Translations under genes and position numbers: made by a program
NCBI GenBank assembly: GCA_029260715.1
Contig: JAJDCS010000014.1
Span: 1 to 64,000 of the forward strand
Reading direction: 5' to 3'
From: Phycisphaeraceae bacterium
GTDB taxonomy: Bacteria > Planctomycetota > Phycisphaerae > Phycisphaerales > Phycisphaeraceae
Length of the DNA: 64,000 nt
Notes under the pieces: model-generated
Told to the model about the DNA's origin: nothing
The model's input: the letters and a program-made list of their open reading frames with translations, nothing else
The model's database searches: none
Shown: in pieces, positions 28,182 to 36,534 of the stretch
Layout: every line of letters starts with the position of its first letter
Numbering within the stretch: the first letter of the stretch is position 1

Positions 28182-28212
28182 ACGAGCCGCGACCGTGAGG
28201 GAGCGGTCTCTT
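28182..28212 (+). repeat. Dispersed repeat, copy with GCGACCGTGA centre
   Basis: Between recO and the 244-aa gene. It shares ACGAGCCG and AGGGAGCGGTCTCTT with the copy at 29087-29126 but has a different centre. The 14 bp CGCGACCGTGAGGG recur at 43238-43251. Confidence 0.65.
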
Positions 28213-29086: not shown

Positions 29087-29126
29087 ACGAGCCGTCCGCC
29101 TCAGGCGGATCAGGGAGCGGTCTCTT
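29087..29126 (+). repeat. Dispersed palindromic repeat, intergenic copy
   Basis: 34 bp (29087-29120) are identical, inverted, to 30931-30964 inside valS. The core CCGCCT-C-AGGCGG is a perfect palindrome. The right part AGGGAGCGGTCTCTT matches 28198-28212. Confidence 0.85.
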
Positions 29127-29161: not shown

Positions 29162-32100
29162 CTATTTTAGCGCCGCCAACTGCTGGCGCAGCGCGTCGGC
29201 TTCTTTTTCGACATCGGCCAGTTGGTCGCGCGTCTGCTGCACCAGGTGAGCGGGTGCTTTGTCCACGTAAGACTTGTTCGACAGCCGCCCCTTGAGCGCG
29301 GCGACGCTCTTGGCGATCTCTTCGAGGCGCTTGTTGAGGCGTGCCTGCTCAGTCTCCGCGTCGATGAGTCCATGAAGGAAAAGCTGGGCATCACCCACGA
29401 GCGTCGCCGCCGCGTCGGCCGGCTTGTCCACGTGCGGGCCAACCTCGGCTGTCTCGACGTTGGCAAGCGTCTCGATCAGCTTGCTTTGTTCAAGCAACCG
29501 CTGGGCCAGCTTGGCCGGCGCCTGGGCGGAGAAGGTTACTTTTTGTCGCGGCGGGGTCTTGTGTGTCGTACGCACCTGGCGCAACGCCCCGACCACAGCT
29601 TGAATTTCGGCGAACGCTTTTTCCGTGCGCGGGTCGATCAGCCCCGACGCCACCTGCGGCCAAGACGCGACCACTAGCAGCCCGCTGGGGAACAGCGACA
29701 CACCGCTTAGCTCGCGGATGGGTGCTACGTTGTTAAGGCTCTCCCACAGTTTTTCGGTGATAAACGGCATCACCGGGTGAAGCATGCGTAGGCTGGCGTC
29801 CAGGCACAGGGCCAGCACTCGCCGCTGCACCGGGTCTTGAGCCACCGTGGGCTTGATCGCTTCGATGTACCAGTCGCACAGGTCGCGCCAGAAGAAGTCG
29901 TACAGCCCCTGGGCGTAGGCGCTAAACTCGAACTGCTCTAGGGCTTTGTTCGTGTCGCGCACCGTCGCGGCTAGGCGAGACAAAATCCACTTATCCGCAA
30001 GCCCCCAGTCGCCGATCGACGAGTCCGTGGCGTGCTTTTCAGCCTCCGGGGGCAGCTTCGTTTCTAAATTAGACAGGGCGAAGCGCGTGGCGTTCCACAA
30101 CTTGTTGGCGAAGTTGCGGCCCAGGTCGAACTTGTCGCTGGTGTTGTGCCCGGTTTCGGGGTCACGCGCCACGGGCAAGCGAACGTCCTGCGTCTGCGTG
30201 GTCATGGCCGCCAACGTGTAGCGCATCGCGTCCGACCCGTGGCTAGCGATGATGTCCAGCGGGTCCACGCCGTTGCCCAGGCTCTTGGACATCTTGCGAC
30301 CCTCGCCGTCTTGGATCATCGCATGAATAAACACGTCCGTGAACGGCAGATCACCGCGGAAGTAGAGATTAAACATCACCATCCTGCTCACCCAGAGCGT
30401 GATGATCTCACGGGCTGTGCACAGCACGTTGCCGGGGTTCCAGGTTTGTAGCGCGGCGTCGCCCTCTTTCTCAGGGAATTGGTCTGGAAACTTCCGGGGA
30501 TCGGGCCAGCCGAGTGTGCTGAAGGGCCAGAGGGCCGAGGAGAACCATGTGTCGAGAACGTCGGGATCGCGGGTGTAAGAATGTGATTCTAAAAAGCGAA
30601 TAACTTCTTCATCGTCAGCGTTTTTGACGCATATAAAAGAACCAGGATCAGACTGCGTGTCTTCAGTGCCGCTTACTAAGCGTCCGGCTCCTTGATAAAC
30701 AATTCGTTCTTGATTTGCCCATTCAAAAATTTTTGAAAGAAACTCACTGTGCTCGCCTGGCCCGGTTTCTGCTGGCAAACCCGGTGAACTCCACACCGGT
30801 ATCCGGTGCCCCCACCACAGTTGTCTGCTGATGCACCAGTCGCGGATGTTTTCGTGCCACCCCCGGAAGGTTTTTGCGTAACGCTCGGGTGTGAAGCGTA
30901 GCTTGCCCTCCCAAGGCGGGCGCGATGAATCCGCTCCCTGATCCGCCTGAGGCGGACGGCTCGTTGTGGGCGATTCTTGTGCCATGGCGCGTAGGGCCGC
31001 GTTGGCTAGGCGGTCGTCGGTCACCTTCACGTACCACTGATCGCTCAAGTACGGCTCAATCGGCACGTGGCTGCGGTAGCTGTGGCCAACGGAGTGGCGG
31101 TACGGGCGTTTATCTTCAAGCCGATTGTTCTTATCAAACCAATCTACGATGGCCTTGCGCGCCTCGTAGCGGTCCAACCCCAGGAGGGTGTGGGCAAAAT
31201 CATTCACCTTGTTTTGATCCCACTCATCGCTAGGCCACCTGTGGTCCTTGCTGATTGCACCGTCCGGGCCCATGACGTTGATCACGGGCAGGTCGTGGCG
31301 CAGGCCGATCTCCCAGTCGTTGGGGTCGTGGGCGGGCGTCACCTTCAAGAACCCGGTGGCGAACTTGGCTTTGGGGTCGTCGCTGTCGGGGTCGGGCAGG
31401 ACGACGTAGTCGTCGGCGATGATCGGGATCGGGCGGTTGACGATGGGCAGCAGCGCCATTTTGCCCACCAGGGCCGCCGCGCGTGGGTCGTTGGGGTTCA
31501 CGGCCACAGCCGTGTCGCCGAGCATGGTCTCGGGCCGCGTCGTGGCGACGGTGACGTGCTTGACCTCTTGCCCGTCGATCACCACCGGCTCACCGCCGGG
31601 AGTTAACGGGTATTGCATGTACCAGAAGTGCCCGTCGATTTCGCGCATCTCGACTTCGTCGTCGGCTAGGGCGGTCTGCGTGGCTGGGTCCCAGTTCACT
31701 AGCCGCTTGCCGCGGTAGATCAGCCCGTCTTTGAATAGCCGGAAGAAGGCTTCGCGCACGGCGCGGGCGCACACCTCGTCCATGGTGAACCGTTGGCGGT
31801 CCCAGTCGCACGAGCAGCCCATGAGCATGAGCTGCTCGGTGATGCGTGCTTCGTATTCGTCCTTCCACGCTTGGATCTTGGCGACGAACTCGTCGCGCTG
31901 GAAGTCCGTGCGTTTTTTGCCCTGCTCCGCGAGCACACGTTTTTCCACGACCGTCTGCGTGGCGATGCCCGCGTGGTCCGTGCCGGGGATCCAGACGGTG
32001 TTGTCGCCGAGCATCCGGTGCCAGCGGATGAGGATGTCCTGGAGCGTGTTGTTCAGCGCGTGGCCCATGTGCAGGGCGGCCGTCACGTTGGGCGGGGGGA

Positions 32101-32239
32101 TGACAATGCAATACGGCCCGCGCCCCTTGGCTACGGGGGCGGTAGGGTCGCCGCGGAACGCGCCGGCCTGCTTCCACTTGCCCGCCACGTCCGGCTCGAT
32201 TTCAGCGGGGCTGTAGGTTTTGGCTAGTTCCTGGGTCAT
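29162..32239 (-). CDS. valS: Valyl-tRNA synthetase with an in-frame repeat insertion
   Basis: A 1025-aa class I synthetase. HMGH at 57-60 and KMSKS at 649-653; the editing domain lies between; a C-terminal coiled-coil arm (NKRLEEIAKSVAALKGRL) is present. Two oddities. First, residues about 420-440 (TTSRPPQADQGADSSRPP) are encoded by a dispersed palindromic repeat inserted before LRFTPERYAKTFRGW. Second, the segment about 491-555, between the WWGHRIPVW and DVLDTWFSS motifs, is AT-rich and lacks the cysteine pairs often seen there. The gene is open throughout and essential, so the insertion must be tolerated. It follows ffh and the SMR gene on the same strand. Confidence 0.96.
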   Translation of the reverse strand: MTQELAKTYSPAEIEPDVAGKWKQAGAFRGDPTAPVAKGRGPYCIVIPPPNVTAALHMGHALNNTLQDILIRWHRMLGDNTVWIPGTDHAGIATQTVVEKRVLAEQGKKRTDFQRDEFVAKIQAWKDEYEARITEQLMLMGCSCDWDRQRFTMDEVCARAVREAFFRLFKDGLIYRGKRLVNWDPATQTALADDEVEMREIDGHFWYMQYPLTPGGEPVVIDGQEVKHVTVATTRPETMLGDTAVAVNPNDPRAAALVGKMALLPIVNRPIPIIADDYVVLPDPDSDDPKAKFATGFLKVTPAHDPNDWEIGLRHDLPVINVMGPDGAISKDHRWPSDEWDQNKVNDFAHTLLGLDRYEARKAIVDWFDKNNRLEDKRPYRHSVGHSYRSHVPIEPYLSDQWYVKVTDDRLANAALRAMAQESPTTSRPPQADQGADSSRPPWEGKLRFTPERYAKTFRGWHENIRDWCISRQLWWGHRIPVWSSPGLPAETGPGEHSEFLSKIFEWANQERIVYQGAGRLVSGTEDTQSDPGSFICVKNADDEEVIRFLESHSYTRDPDVLDTWFSSALWPFSTLGWPDPRKFPDQFPEKEGDAALQTWNPGNVLCTAREIITLWVSRMVMFNLYFRGDLPFTDVFIHAMIQDGEGRKMSKSLGNGVDPLDIIASHGSDAMRYTLAAMTTQTQDVRLPVARDPETGHNTSDKFDLGRNFANKLWNATRFALSNLETKLPPEAEKHATDSSIGDWGLADKWILSRLAATVRDTNKALEQFEFSAYAQGLYDFFWRDLCDWYIEAIKPTVAQDPVQRRVLALCLDASLRMLHPVMPFITEKLWESLNNVAPIRELSGVSLFPSGLLVVASWPQVASGLIDPRTEKAFAEIQAVVGALRQVRTTHKTPPRQKVTFSAQAPAKLAQRLLEQSKLIETLANVETAEVGPHVDKPADAAATLVGDAQLFLHGLIDAETEQARLNKRLEEIAKSVAALKGRLSNKSYVDKAPAHLVQQTRDQLADVEKEADALRQQLAALK
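30931..30964 (-). repeat. Dispersed palindromic repeat inside valS
   Basis: 34 bp identical to the reverse complement of 29087-29120. In the valS frame it encodes TSRPPQADQGA. It lies at a loop between the editing and catalytic segments and adds about 20 residues relative to what I expect for the family. Confidence 0.85.
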
Positions 32240-35081: not shown

Positions 35082-35107
35082 GGTGGCACCCAACGCCGTG
35101 AACTATG
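35082..35107 (+). repeat. Left terminal inverted repeat of the IS4-like element
   Basis: Begins GGTGGCACCCAACGCCGTGA and matches the reverse complement of 36509-36534 at 25 of 26 positions. Confidence 0.85.
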
Positions 35108-35319
35108 TTTGAATTTGGCTTTGAGTAGGGTGTTGGGTCGATAAAAAAGATCGCCTTGCCGGCAAGTGTGTTCAGATTATTCACCGACAAGGAGATCCTC
35201 ATGTACAGCACGGATGCTTCTGATGGTATCGGTATGTCAATACCATCACGATCAATTTCAGCGGTTCTCGGCACGTATTTCCAAGCCCCTTTTTTTCCGC
35301 TTATCGCCCACGCCCGCGT

Positions 35320-36513
35320 TTGTGGTGGACGCCACGGCGGTTGATCACCACGCTGATTCTCATGGCTTGGGGGCACGGATCGACCGGGCTAACCGAACGA
35401 TTCGATCAAGCGAGGGCGGCGTGGACAGGCCCCACCACTGCGACGACTTACCAGGGGTTTGTCAAAGCCCTCCAACGTGTGGGCCTCGATATCATCGACG
35501 CGGCGGGGACGCGGTTACGCAAACAGATGCAATCGATCGCCGGTCGATGGTGGCGCCGCGAAGGTTGGTGTGTCATTGCGGCCGACGGCAGCCGGTTCGA
35601 ACTGCCACGCACCCAATCGCACGAACAGTCATTCGGGGTTAATGGCCAAGCCGCCAGCGGCCCGCAAGCATGGGTGACGATGCTGTGGCACATGGGCTTG
35701 GGTTTACCGTGGGATTGGCGAATTGACCGGGCGCGGGCCAGTGAGCGTGGCCACTTGGCCGATATGCTCGGCGACACACCCTACCGTGCGTTGATCGTCG
35801 CCGACGCGGGGTTCACCGGTTATGGGTTGATTAAGCAAGTGACCGATTCGGGCCGGCACGTGCTGCTTCGTGTTGGGGGCGGGGTGAAGCTGTTGGCGGG
35901 CTTGGGCTACGGCGAACAGGTCGACAAACAGACGGTGTATCTCTGGCCCGATCGGGCTCGGAAGTGTCAACAACCGCCGTTGGTCCTACGGCTGATCGCG
36001 GTGCGATCTACCGGTGACCGCCGCCGCAAGGTGTACCTCCTGACCAGTGTGACCGATCCCGATCAATTATCCGATGAACAGGCGTCGGTGTTGTACCGAA
36101 TGCGGTGGGGTGTCGAGCTGTGCTACCGATCGCTCAAGCAAACGCTCCAAGCCCGAAAATTGCGGGCCCATTCCTCCACGGTGGCGCGGTTCGAATTGCA
36201 CGGGCTATTGCTGGGGCTGACGTTGTTGGGCTTGATCAGTATCCGTCCGATCCTCGCCGACGGCCACGACCCATTGAGTTGGTCGGTCGCCTGCTCGCTA
36301 CGCATCGTCCGCCAAGCGATGCGCACACCGGGCCGATCCAACGATTGGCAAACGGCTCTGGCCCAAGTGGTTAAAGATCCCTACATCCGCCAACGGAAAA
36401 CACGCCAACGGTGGCCACGAAAAAAACAAGCCGATCCGCCACCGGGCAAACCAAAAATCAGGACCGCTACAAAAATCGAAATCACATGCGCAAAATACCT
36501 ACAAAACGCATAG
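35320..36513 (+). CDS. IS4-family transposase, 5' part probably frameshifted
   Basis: 397 aa with a DDE core: Asp in IAADGSRFELP, Asp in IVADAGFTGYG, and Glu in YRMRWGVELCYRSLKQTL, the Y-R-E-K signature of IS4. The only start for this frame is TTG 35320, without a ribosome site. Upstream, a strong AAGGAGATCCTC-ATG at 35201 begins a short frame, and a transposase-like N-terminus (YHHDQFQRFSARISKPLFFR) lies in a third frame. This suggests frameshifts near a T-run at about 35290 and near 35317. The core is complete, but the gene may be inactive. Confidence 0.8.
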   Translation: MWWTPRRLITTLILMAWGHGSTGLTERFDQARAAWTGPTTATTYQGFVKALQRVGLDIIDAAGTRLRKQMQSIAGRWWRREGWCVIAADGSRFELPRTQSHEQSFGVNGQAASGPQAWVTMLWHMGLGLPWDWRIDRARASERGHLADMLGDTPYRALIVADAGFTGYGLIKQVTDSGRHVLLRVGGGVKLLAGLGYGEQVDKQTVYLWPDRARKCQQPPLVLRLIAVRSTGDRRRKVYLLTSVTDPDQLSDEQASVLYRMRWGVELCYRSLKQTLQARKLRAHSSTVARFELHGLLLGLTLLGLISIRPILADGHDPLSWSVACSLRIVRQAMRTPGRSNDWQTALAQVVKDPYIRQRKTRQRWPRKKQADPPPGKPKIRTATKIEITCAKYLQNA

Positions 36514-36534
36514 TTCACGGCGTTGAGTGCCACC
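36509..36534 (-). repeat. Right terminal inverted repeat of the IS4-like element
   Basis: Inverted match to 35082-35107 with one mismatch; it lies just before and beyond the transposase stop at 36513. Confidence 0.85.

Follow-up and report, generated by a model that had tools for sequence, protein, structure and literature searches.

Inteins and homing endonucleases are selfish enzymes that sit in frame in an essential protein and are thereby protected from loss. The persistence of REP sequences and their transposases in genomes still awaits an explanation, and transposases residing inside a synthetase suggest a testable one: mutations removing the transposase would mostly destroy the host enzyme, too. 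Two parts of this picture were known before, as far as the consulted portions of the sources go, namely REPs inside genes, tRNA synthetase genes among them (PMC3733652), and class 3 RAYTs (REP-associated tyrosine transposases) accompanied by repeats (PMC6006769). According to the same portions, the latter study set aside a small number of proteins that were longer than expected, regarding them as gene fusions or annotation errors; the word "synthetase" does not occur in its text. Among the open-access literature matches listed, there was no report of a RAYT/Y1 transposase inside ValRS, LeuRS, HAM1 or other genes, and searching the open-access literature for the letters of the repeat described here or of a flanking peptide likewise brought up no such report.

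The analyzed window comprises the first 64 kb of its contig (G000:C6:1-64000) in a Phycisphaeraceae genome of 3.32 Mb (44 contigs, 96.5% complete; hereafter the own genome). An initial annotation had noted in valS an in-frame insertion of a dispersed palindromic repeat, and this description was confirmed. The 34 bp ACGAGCCGTCCGCCTCAGGCGGATCAGGGAGCGG occur twice, letter for letter identical and inverted relative to each other (Table 1); the valS copy is translated as TSRPPQADQGA, as had been stated, and the 1025-aa ORF reads through the insert, leaving the host gene open. The wider family has one more member in the window, downstream of the neighboring gene, which we take from its ORF to be recO. 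Since the 15-nt palindrome of the repeat, TCCGCCTCAGGCGGA, has four matches in the window at up to two mismatches (two sites on both strands) versus 0.18 expected, and the 24-nt core of the repeat has 71 copies genome-wide at up to three mismatches versus 0 for the reversed control, the palindrome is not present in the window by chance. Further along the window (35082-36534), a transposase-like ORF (35320-36513) lies between 26-bp inverted repeats that are 96% complementary.

Table 1. Features of the window at and around the repeat in valS.
Feature	Position	Strand	Evidence and remarks
REP-like repeat, type 1, in frame in valS	30931..30973	-	Exact match 30931-30964; encodes (S)PTTSRPPQADQGA
Identical type 1 copy in the intergenic stretch that separates the end of valS from recO	29087..29120	+	Exact match
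Type 2 (parent-type) repeat ACGAGCCGCGACCGTGAGGGAGCGG in the intergenic region downstream of recO	28182..28206	+	Third member of the wider family in the window
valS (valyl-tRNA synthetase; 1025 aa), reading frame uninterrupted by the insert	29162..32239	-	ORF; Pfam tRNA-synt_1, Anticodon_1, Val_tRNA-synt_C; 1gax E 7.2e-157
Hypervariable ValRS loop QESPTTSRPPQADQGADSSRPP; site of in-frame RAYT insertion in relatives	30914..30979	-	Comparison of relatives

The conserved unit exceeds the 34 bp. The type 1 copies, when aligned, have some 43 nt in common, CCRCNA-CGAGCCGTCCGCCTCAGGCGGATMAGGGAGCGGTC, extending from core position -6 to +36 and corresponding to approximately 30931-30973 in valS. Four sites with the same arms as type 1 copies and another center revealed a parent repeat, ACGAGCCGCGACCGTNAGGGAGCGG, with 99 copies in the own genome (up to three mismatches; reversed control 0). 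Type 1 equals this parent with the 15-nt palindrome replacing 6 nt; as the net gain is 9 nt, the variant is frame-neutral. Several reading frames of the repeat contain no stops. The parent repeat occurs in 10/294 Planctomycetota genomes (up to one mismatch, own genome included) with 1 to 146 copies each, seven of the ten holding 20-146. In named genomes, at least 109 stretches were found, all titled Planctomycetota groups except one acidobacterial. In these other organisms the parent repeat has no common flanks and often forms inverted pairs (e.g. L172, L175, L183, L193) as in a BIME or REPIN, and in the own genome it is mostly single. At L188 3123-3579 (PNC21), the parent repeat and close variants of it stand in tandem with a spacing of about 36 nt.

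For type 1, the scan of public genomes, which possibly did not include records near the own genome, gave no exact-pattern match. Five of 60 relatives showed one or two matches at three mismatches, which we attribute to chance since the reversed control gave one as well (in another genome). Within these 60 relatives and the exact public scan, the type 1 variant thus appears specific to the own genome. Being imperfect palindromes of 20-40 bp at high copy number (71 and 99 copies, controls 0), both repeats look like REP sequences. Their foot is CGAG, neither of the terminal REP tetranucleotides GTAG and CGTC, and therefore we label them "REP-like".

The placement of the copies was determined using a codon-usage gene caller written for this analysis. 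The genome-wide count, which the initial annotation had proposed, placed 67 of the 71 type 1 copies between genes and few inside them. The gene on the 5' side of these 67 was co-directional in 42 cases, opposite in 23 and uncalled in two; for 28 of the 42 copies behind co-directional genes, the distance to the stop codon is no more than 33 nt. Among the 30/99 parent-type copies examined, 29 were intergenic (19 co-directional, nine opposite, one uncalled) and one (L141) lies at an ORF end. Both types are therefore mainly extragenic and located downstream of genes, as REPs are. The type 1 copies inside genes are those in valS, in murF, at the end of a radical-SAM protein and, with uncertainty, at L008; calls near ORF starts (e.g. 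L009, L021) were dropped because the recognizable protein begins further in. In murF (named by eye; L099 2420-2580, G000:C42:53369), an in-frame antisense copy encodes TAPLSASGGRL, which forms part of some 37 residues missing from 29/29 relatives. Its center base is G, a minority state (5/71); the usual C would give a stop in that frame. At L068 2480-2530 (G000:C21:5893), the C-terminal tail ATSRPPQADKGAVTK of a radical-SAM ORF (HpnH-like by eye) is derived from the repeat.

The initial annotation had located the valS insert before LRFTPERYAKTF, probably in a loop, and had suggested comparison with relatives and with a structure; both comparisons agree with it. The loop between LRAMA and LRFxPxRYAKTF is variable in length and sequence in the 29 relatives first aligned, none of which (0/29) carries the peptide TSRPPQADQGA, and the aligned loop of Thermus thermophilus ValRS (1gax) is 15 residues shorter, or 25 including the helix before it. 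In total, valS was read in 49 of the 60 relatives (the loops of 11 were unread, and L036 is without the anchor motif). Nine of the 49 have 237-291 residues between the anchors, containing a Y1 transposase domain. Given alone, all nine domains pass the PF01797 (Y1_Tnp, IS200-like) cut-off, the weakest with 23.5 versus 23. In three whole fused ValRS (limit 1e-4), Pfam detected tRNA-synt_1 and Anticodon_1 in 3/3 and Val_tRNA-synt_C as well as Y1_Tnp in 2/3; at this limit, the whole-protein search gave no Y1_Tnp in L358 (ValRS) and L383 (HAM1). Among the matches listed for the nine carrier genomes there was no second ValRS of comparable score, that of G048 being split over two contigs. A search for RAYT remnants in the loops of 39 relatives without RAYT gave nothing convincing, and the loose matches L032 and L056 were assigned to chance. 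In one further valS (L318, G020), the anchors lie 126 residues apart, and no RAYT was recognized between them. The ValRS loop is an insertion hot spot.

In the relatives' valS, the embedded RAYTs are flanked by inverted repeats that are themselves translated. The left flank, ACG AGC CGC GAC CGT NAG GGA GCG, is read as TSRDR(E/K/Q)GA, and the right flank, its reverse complement, as PLPHGRGS; the peptide TSRPPQADQGA of the own valS is the TSRDR(E/K/Q)GA reading frame of the variant repeat. In 16 of the 17 class-3-like ValRS fusions described below, PLP(H/D)GRGS follows the transposase and the repeat peptide precedes it in one of three frames, and the remaining one (G044) has a different repeat family. 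The hairpin repeats flanking these class-3-like RAYTs carry the foot CGAG. The two flanks covary between genomes (CCCC/GGGG in G004, CCAC/GTGG in G027), and five repeats stand in series before the transposase in G048. G040 and G052 hold another kind of RAYT with other repeats. In G388 and G518 (L336, L347), a third-frame repeat (RAATVRERS/T) lies inside the embedded transposase domain, representing a nested insertion.

The RAYTs embedded in proteins are a larger finding than the valS repeat itself. Using a class-3-like query, 93/400 genomes of the order matched at 1e-10. Reading of the DNA placed seventeen of the matches inside ValRS, each with host sequence before and after it, and no other class-3-like match has a frame above 900 aa; four more in frames of 620-846 aa look like spurious overlapping frames. 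A second query, composed of a different RAYT and the ValRS segment behind it, matched 62 of the 400 genomes at 1e-25, and in 32 of them a single alignment reaches the ValRS end of the query. Other RAYT kinds were read in ValRS, with both sides in one frame, in 26 genomes (23 of those 32 and three more), and nine further genomes show a RAYT in ValRS by one spanning alignment alone. No genome belongs to both sets, so that at least 52/400 genomes of the order (17 + 26 + 9) carry a RAYT in ValRS, which is a lower bound at the limits used (1e-10; 1e-25).

Further hosts were identified. HAM1/RdgB with an in-frame RAYT was read in eight genomes of the order (L383-L390), the insert being located before G(T/S)F(E/D)GRIG; the host GRI(G) follows it in 8/8 and ARFVC-like sequence precedes it in six, and Pfam on two of these fusions detected Ham1p_like in both and Y1_Tnp in one. 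Six genomes (L393-L398) have the RAYT in frame in LeuRS, where it adjoins the editing domain on the N-terminal side; five were recognized by TTRPDT(L/I)FGATYMV and one by YARFWHKVL; in the two analyzed with Pfam, both the LeuRS editing domain and Y1_Tnp were found. Outside the order, a class-3-like RAYT with several translated repeats lies in a methylase-like (by eye) frame of 1614 aa (L298, G341:C1:7397782). Repeats beside a RAYT were thus found in the relatives' valS, not in the own genome, and in six repeat-rich genomes at 3/30 loci fetched (of 42 matches; parent repeat within 1.5 kb), including an in-frame ValRS copy (L288) and the methylase-like copy. Of the at least 109 public parent-repeat stretches, four have a RAYT by the queries used, and one of these (L180) is inside ValRS.

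The embedded domains retain the features of their class. H-x-H and the tyrosine column are kept in 17/17 class-3-like ValRS copies, as in the class 3 signature, and H-x-H is recognizable in 25/26 of the other ValRS copies (L399 is without it). Of the 25 closest domain pairs, 19 (one of them from HAM1) gave a dN/dS of 0.09-0.28, five were saturated and one was near-identical; this purifying selection speaks for live domains but could reflect no more than the folding need of the fusion. The domain of G052 (type B) scores 96.9 on the NCBIfam model REP_Tyr_transpos (NF047646; cut-off 80). The class-3-like L180 and L201 reach 30.6 and 27.5 bits on this model, below 80 and also below the IS200 cut-off, which is in keeping with the position between the IS200 and REP groups given to class 3 in the portion of PMC6006769 consulted. 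A model of one embedded domain (OFTM204), built from a three-row alignment with a mean pLDDT of 73.5 and poor at residues 15-44, had 30 PDB matches at E <= 0.001. All are Y1 transposases with a TM of about 0.5, and the third is 4er8, a RAYT with a REP hairpin.

In view of these results, we consider it probable that the valS insert is a REP-like repeat of a hairpin-forming family, likely a RAYT (HUH/Y1) substrate, with RAYTs occupying the same loop in relatives. A RAYT would mobilize the repeats in single-stranded form, either by themselves or together with the RAYT gene. Insertion into a gene would usually be lethal, and the insertions that survive would be those that leave the frame open and lie in a loop able to tolerate them; landings in genes could be bearable because several repeat frames are stop-free. 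Since a frameshift or stop in the embedded transposase would also cost the host gene, an essential synthetase gene could serve as a refuge. Three points are inferred from the sequences: the repeats are mobilized by RAYTs, the fused domain functions as an active enzyme, and the RAYT is protected by its residence in an essential gene. We also lean, if slightly, towards a broader reading in which the RAYTs of the Phycisphaerales and related groups are mobile elements embedded in proteins: complete HUH transposases and their repeats would reside in frame within essential enzymes (chiefly ValRS, also LeuRS and HAM1/RdgB), be translated as internal domains and remain active, the host gene serving as refuge in an intein-like manner without splicing. 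The own valS repeat would then be a solo mark of this process.

The embedded Y1 domain might instead be a domesticated domain, belonging to ValRS in particular lineages and serving the cell (e.g. by linking the handling of single-stranded DNA to translation); it would then have been passed on vertically, have disappeared from the own genome and not be a mobile element. The retained active-site motifs would fit such a role, as would the dN/dS of 0.09-0.28. In the RAYT tree, moreover, the class-3-like embedded copies form nearly one group (2 changes versus 12.0 in shuffles), in which five f2 copies group with a support of 99/98 and the two f6 genomes also group; the fork uniting the embedded copies is weak (91/74) and contains the methylase copy and one free-standing gene. 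However, several RAYT kinds use the one ValRS loop, and LeuRS, HAM1 and the methylase (by eye) are further hosts. RAYT and ValRS distances are uncorrelated over the 17 copies (Mantel r 0.07, p 0.31), which argues against simple vertical inheritance, and the distribution on the ValRS tree is patchy: in this tree of 50 rows, the seven type A (RAYT) rows need at least five changes, and the own ValRS falls in a supported clade with the type A carriers G004 and G032 and the empty relative G010. We read this pattern, as far as the trees go, as repeated gain and loss of ValRS-loop RAYTs, and domestication appears unlikely to us. On the other side, against mobilization by RAYTs, stands that no target duplication and no strain pair with and without the insert were found.

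Concerning the repeat itself, it could be assumed that it belongs to a MITE, an element of about 120 bp that is bounded by terminal inverted repeats and mobilized by another transposase, RAYTs then having no role. Six of the 71 type 1 copies indeed show arm pairing above every shuffled control, the left arm is common to 13, one full armed copy folds into a 120-nt hairpin (z -5.2), and the same arms occur on four parent-type copies. In most copies, including that in valS, arm pairing is not significant, and terminal inverted repeats were rejected as a general feature. The parent repeat lacks common flanks elsewhere and flanks RAYTs in relatives' valS, and REPs within longer palindromes have been reported (PMC3733652, in the portion consulted), all of which makes a MITE improbable. 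An RNA or 3' UTR element under selection, acting as mRNA stabilizer or terminator and present in valS by accident, would explain why 42/67 intergenic copies stand behind a co-directional gene, 28 of them close to its stop codon, and why the core is kept while the flanks diverge. Downstream placement is, according to PMC3733652, general for REPs, and the copies in valS and murF are in frame. The 71 copies are distributed over 70 loci, and Rfam, run on 20 of these, gave no match over the repeat, the sole match being to an RNase P unrelated to it; if CCRC pairs with GCGG, the sense strand has an A-C mismatch in 32/71 copies. We therefore give this explanation little credence. The likeness to Rickettsia palindromic elements (RPEs) drawn in the initial annotation, whose interpretation is partly supported as a whole, stood with regard to behavior, the insert being palindromic and in frame in an essential gene, and RPEs have themselves been termed REP-like (PMC3733652). 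By copy number, placement and relatives, the element is REP-like: the organism is a different one, copies are chiefly intergenic (67/71) and the family is tied to RAYTs in relatives. A true RPE is accordingly very improbable.

Within the probable REP-like family, the copies of the own genome are orphans, since this genome, at 96.5% completeness, gave no class-3-like RAYT match at 1e-10. Three own Y1_Tnp matches (two over the cut-off) were rejected as partners: this repeat does not flank them, and by eye other repeats surround them. The exception is one repeat copy at a distance of about 0.36 kb from one match, the two being separated by a stretch that looks 5S-like by eye. The own valS repeat may represent a non-autonomous allele of the hot spot, either by a separate landing or as the remnant of a lost RAYT. 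The ValRS loop repeatedly accepts some 200 extra residues, a property of use in work on synthetases, and long ORFs of synthetases or HAM1 may be real even where they resemble fusions or annotation errors.

Compared to the described systems, the in-frame palindromic repeats in valS and murF resemble the Rickettsia RPEs as portrayed in the consulted portion of PMC3733652, a likeness at the level of that description; unlike RPEs, they occur in another organism, are mostly intergenic and are linked to RAYTs in relatives. The embedded class-3-like domains agree with class 3 TnpA_Y1, as far as the consulted text of PMC6006769 describes it, in the 155-aa profile, NHVH, W[TA] and the YV..EQ motif, in the occurrence in Planctomycetes and Acidobacteria and in the high-copy secondary structures that flank them; the foot reported there, CnGA, appears to differ from the CGAG read here. 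With REP/REPIN/BIME sequences and their RAYTs (TnpA_REP), the elements share the short palindromic form, the high copy number, the location mostly downstream of genes, the inverted pairs and the link to HUH/Y1 enzymes, and they differ in the foot CGAG and in a RAYT gene that lies in frame within a host protein. Unlike inteins and homing endonucleases, these insertions use a variable loop and not a catalytic motif as their site, and several kinds of transposase use it.
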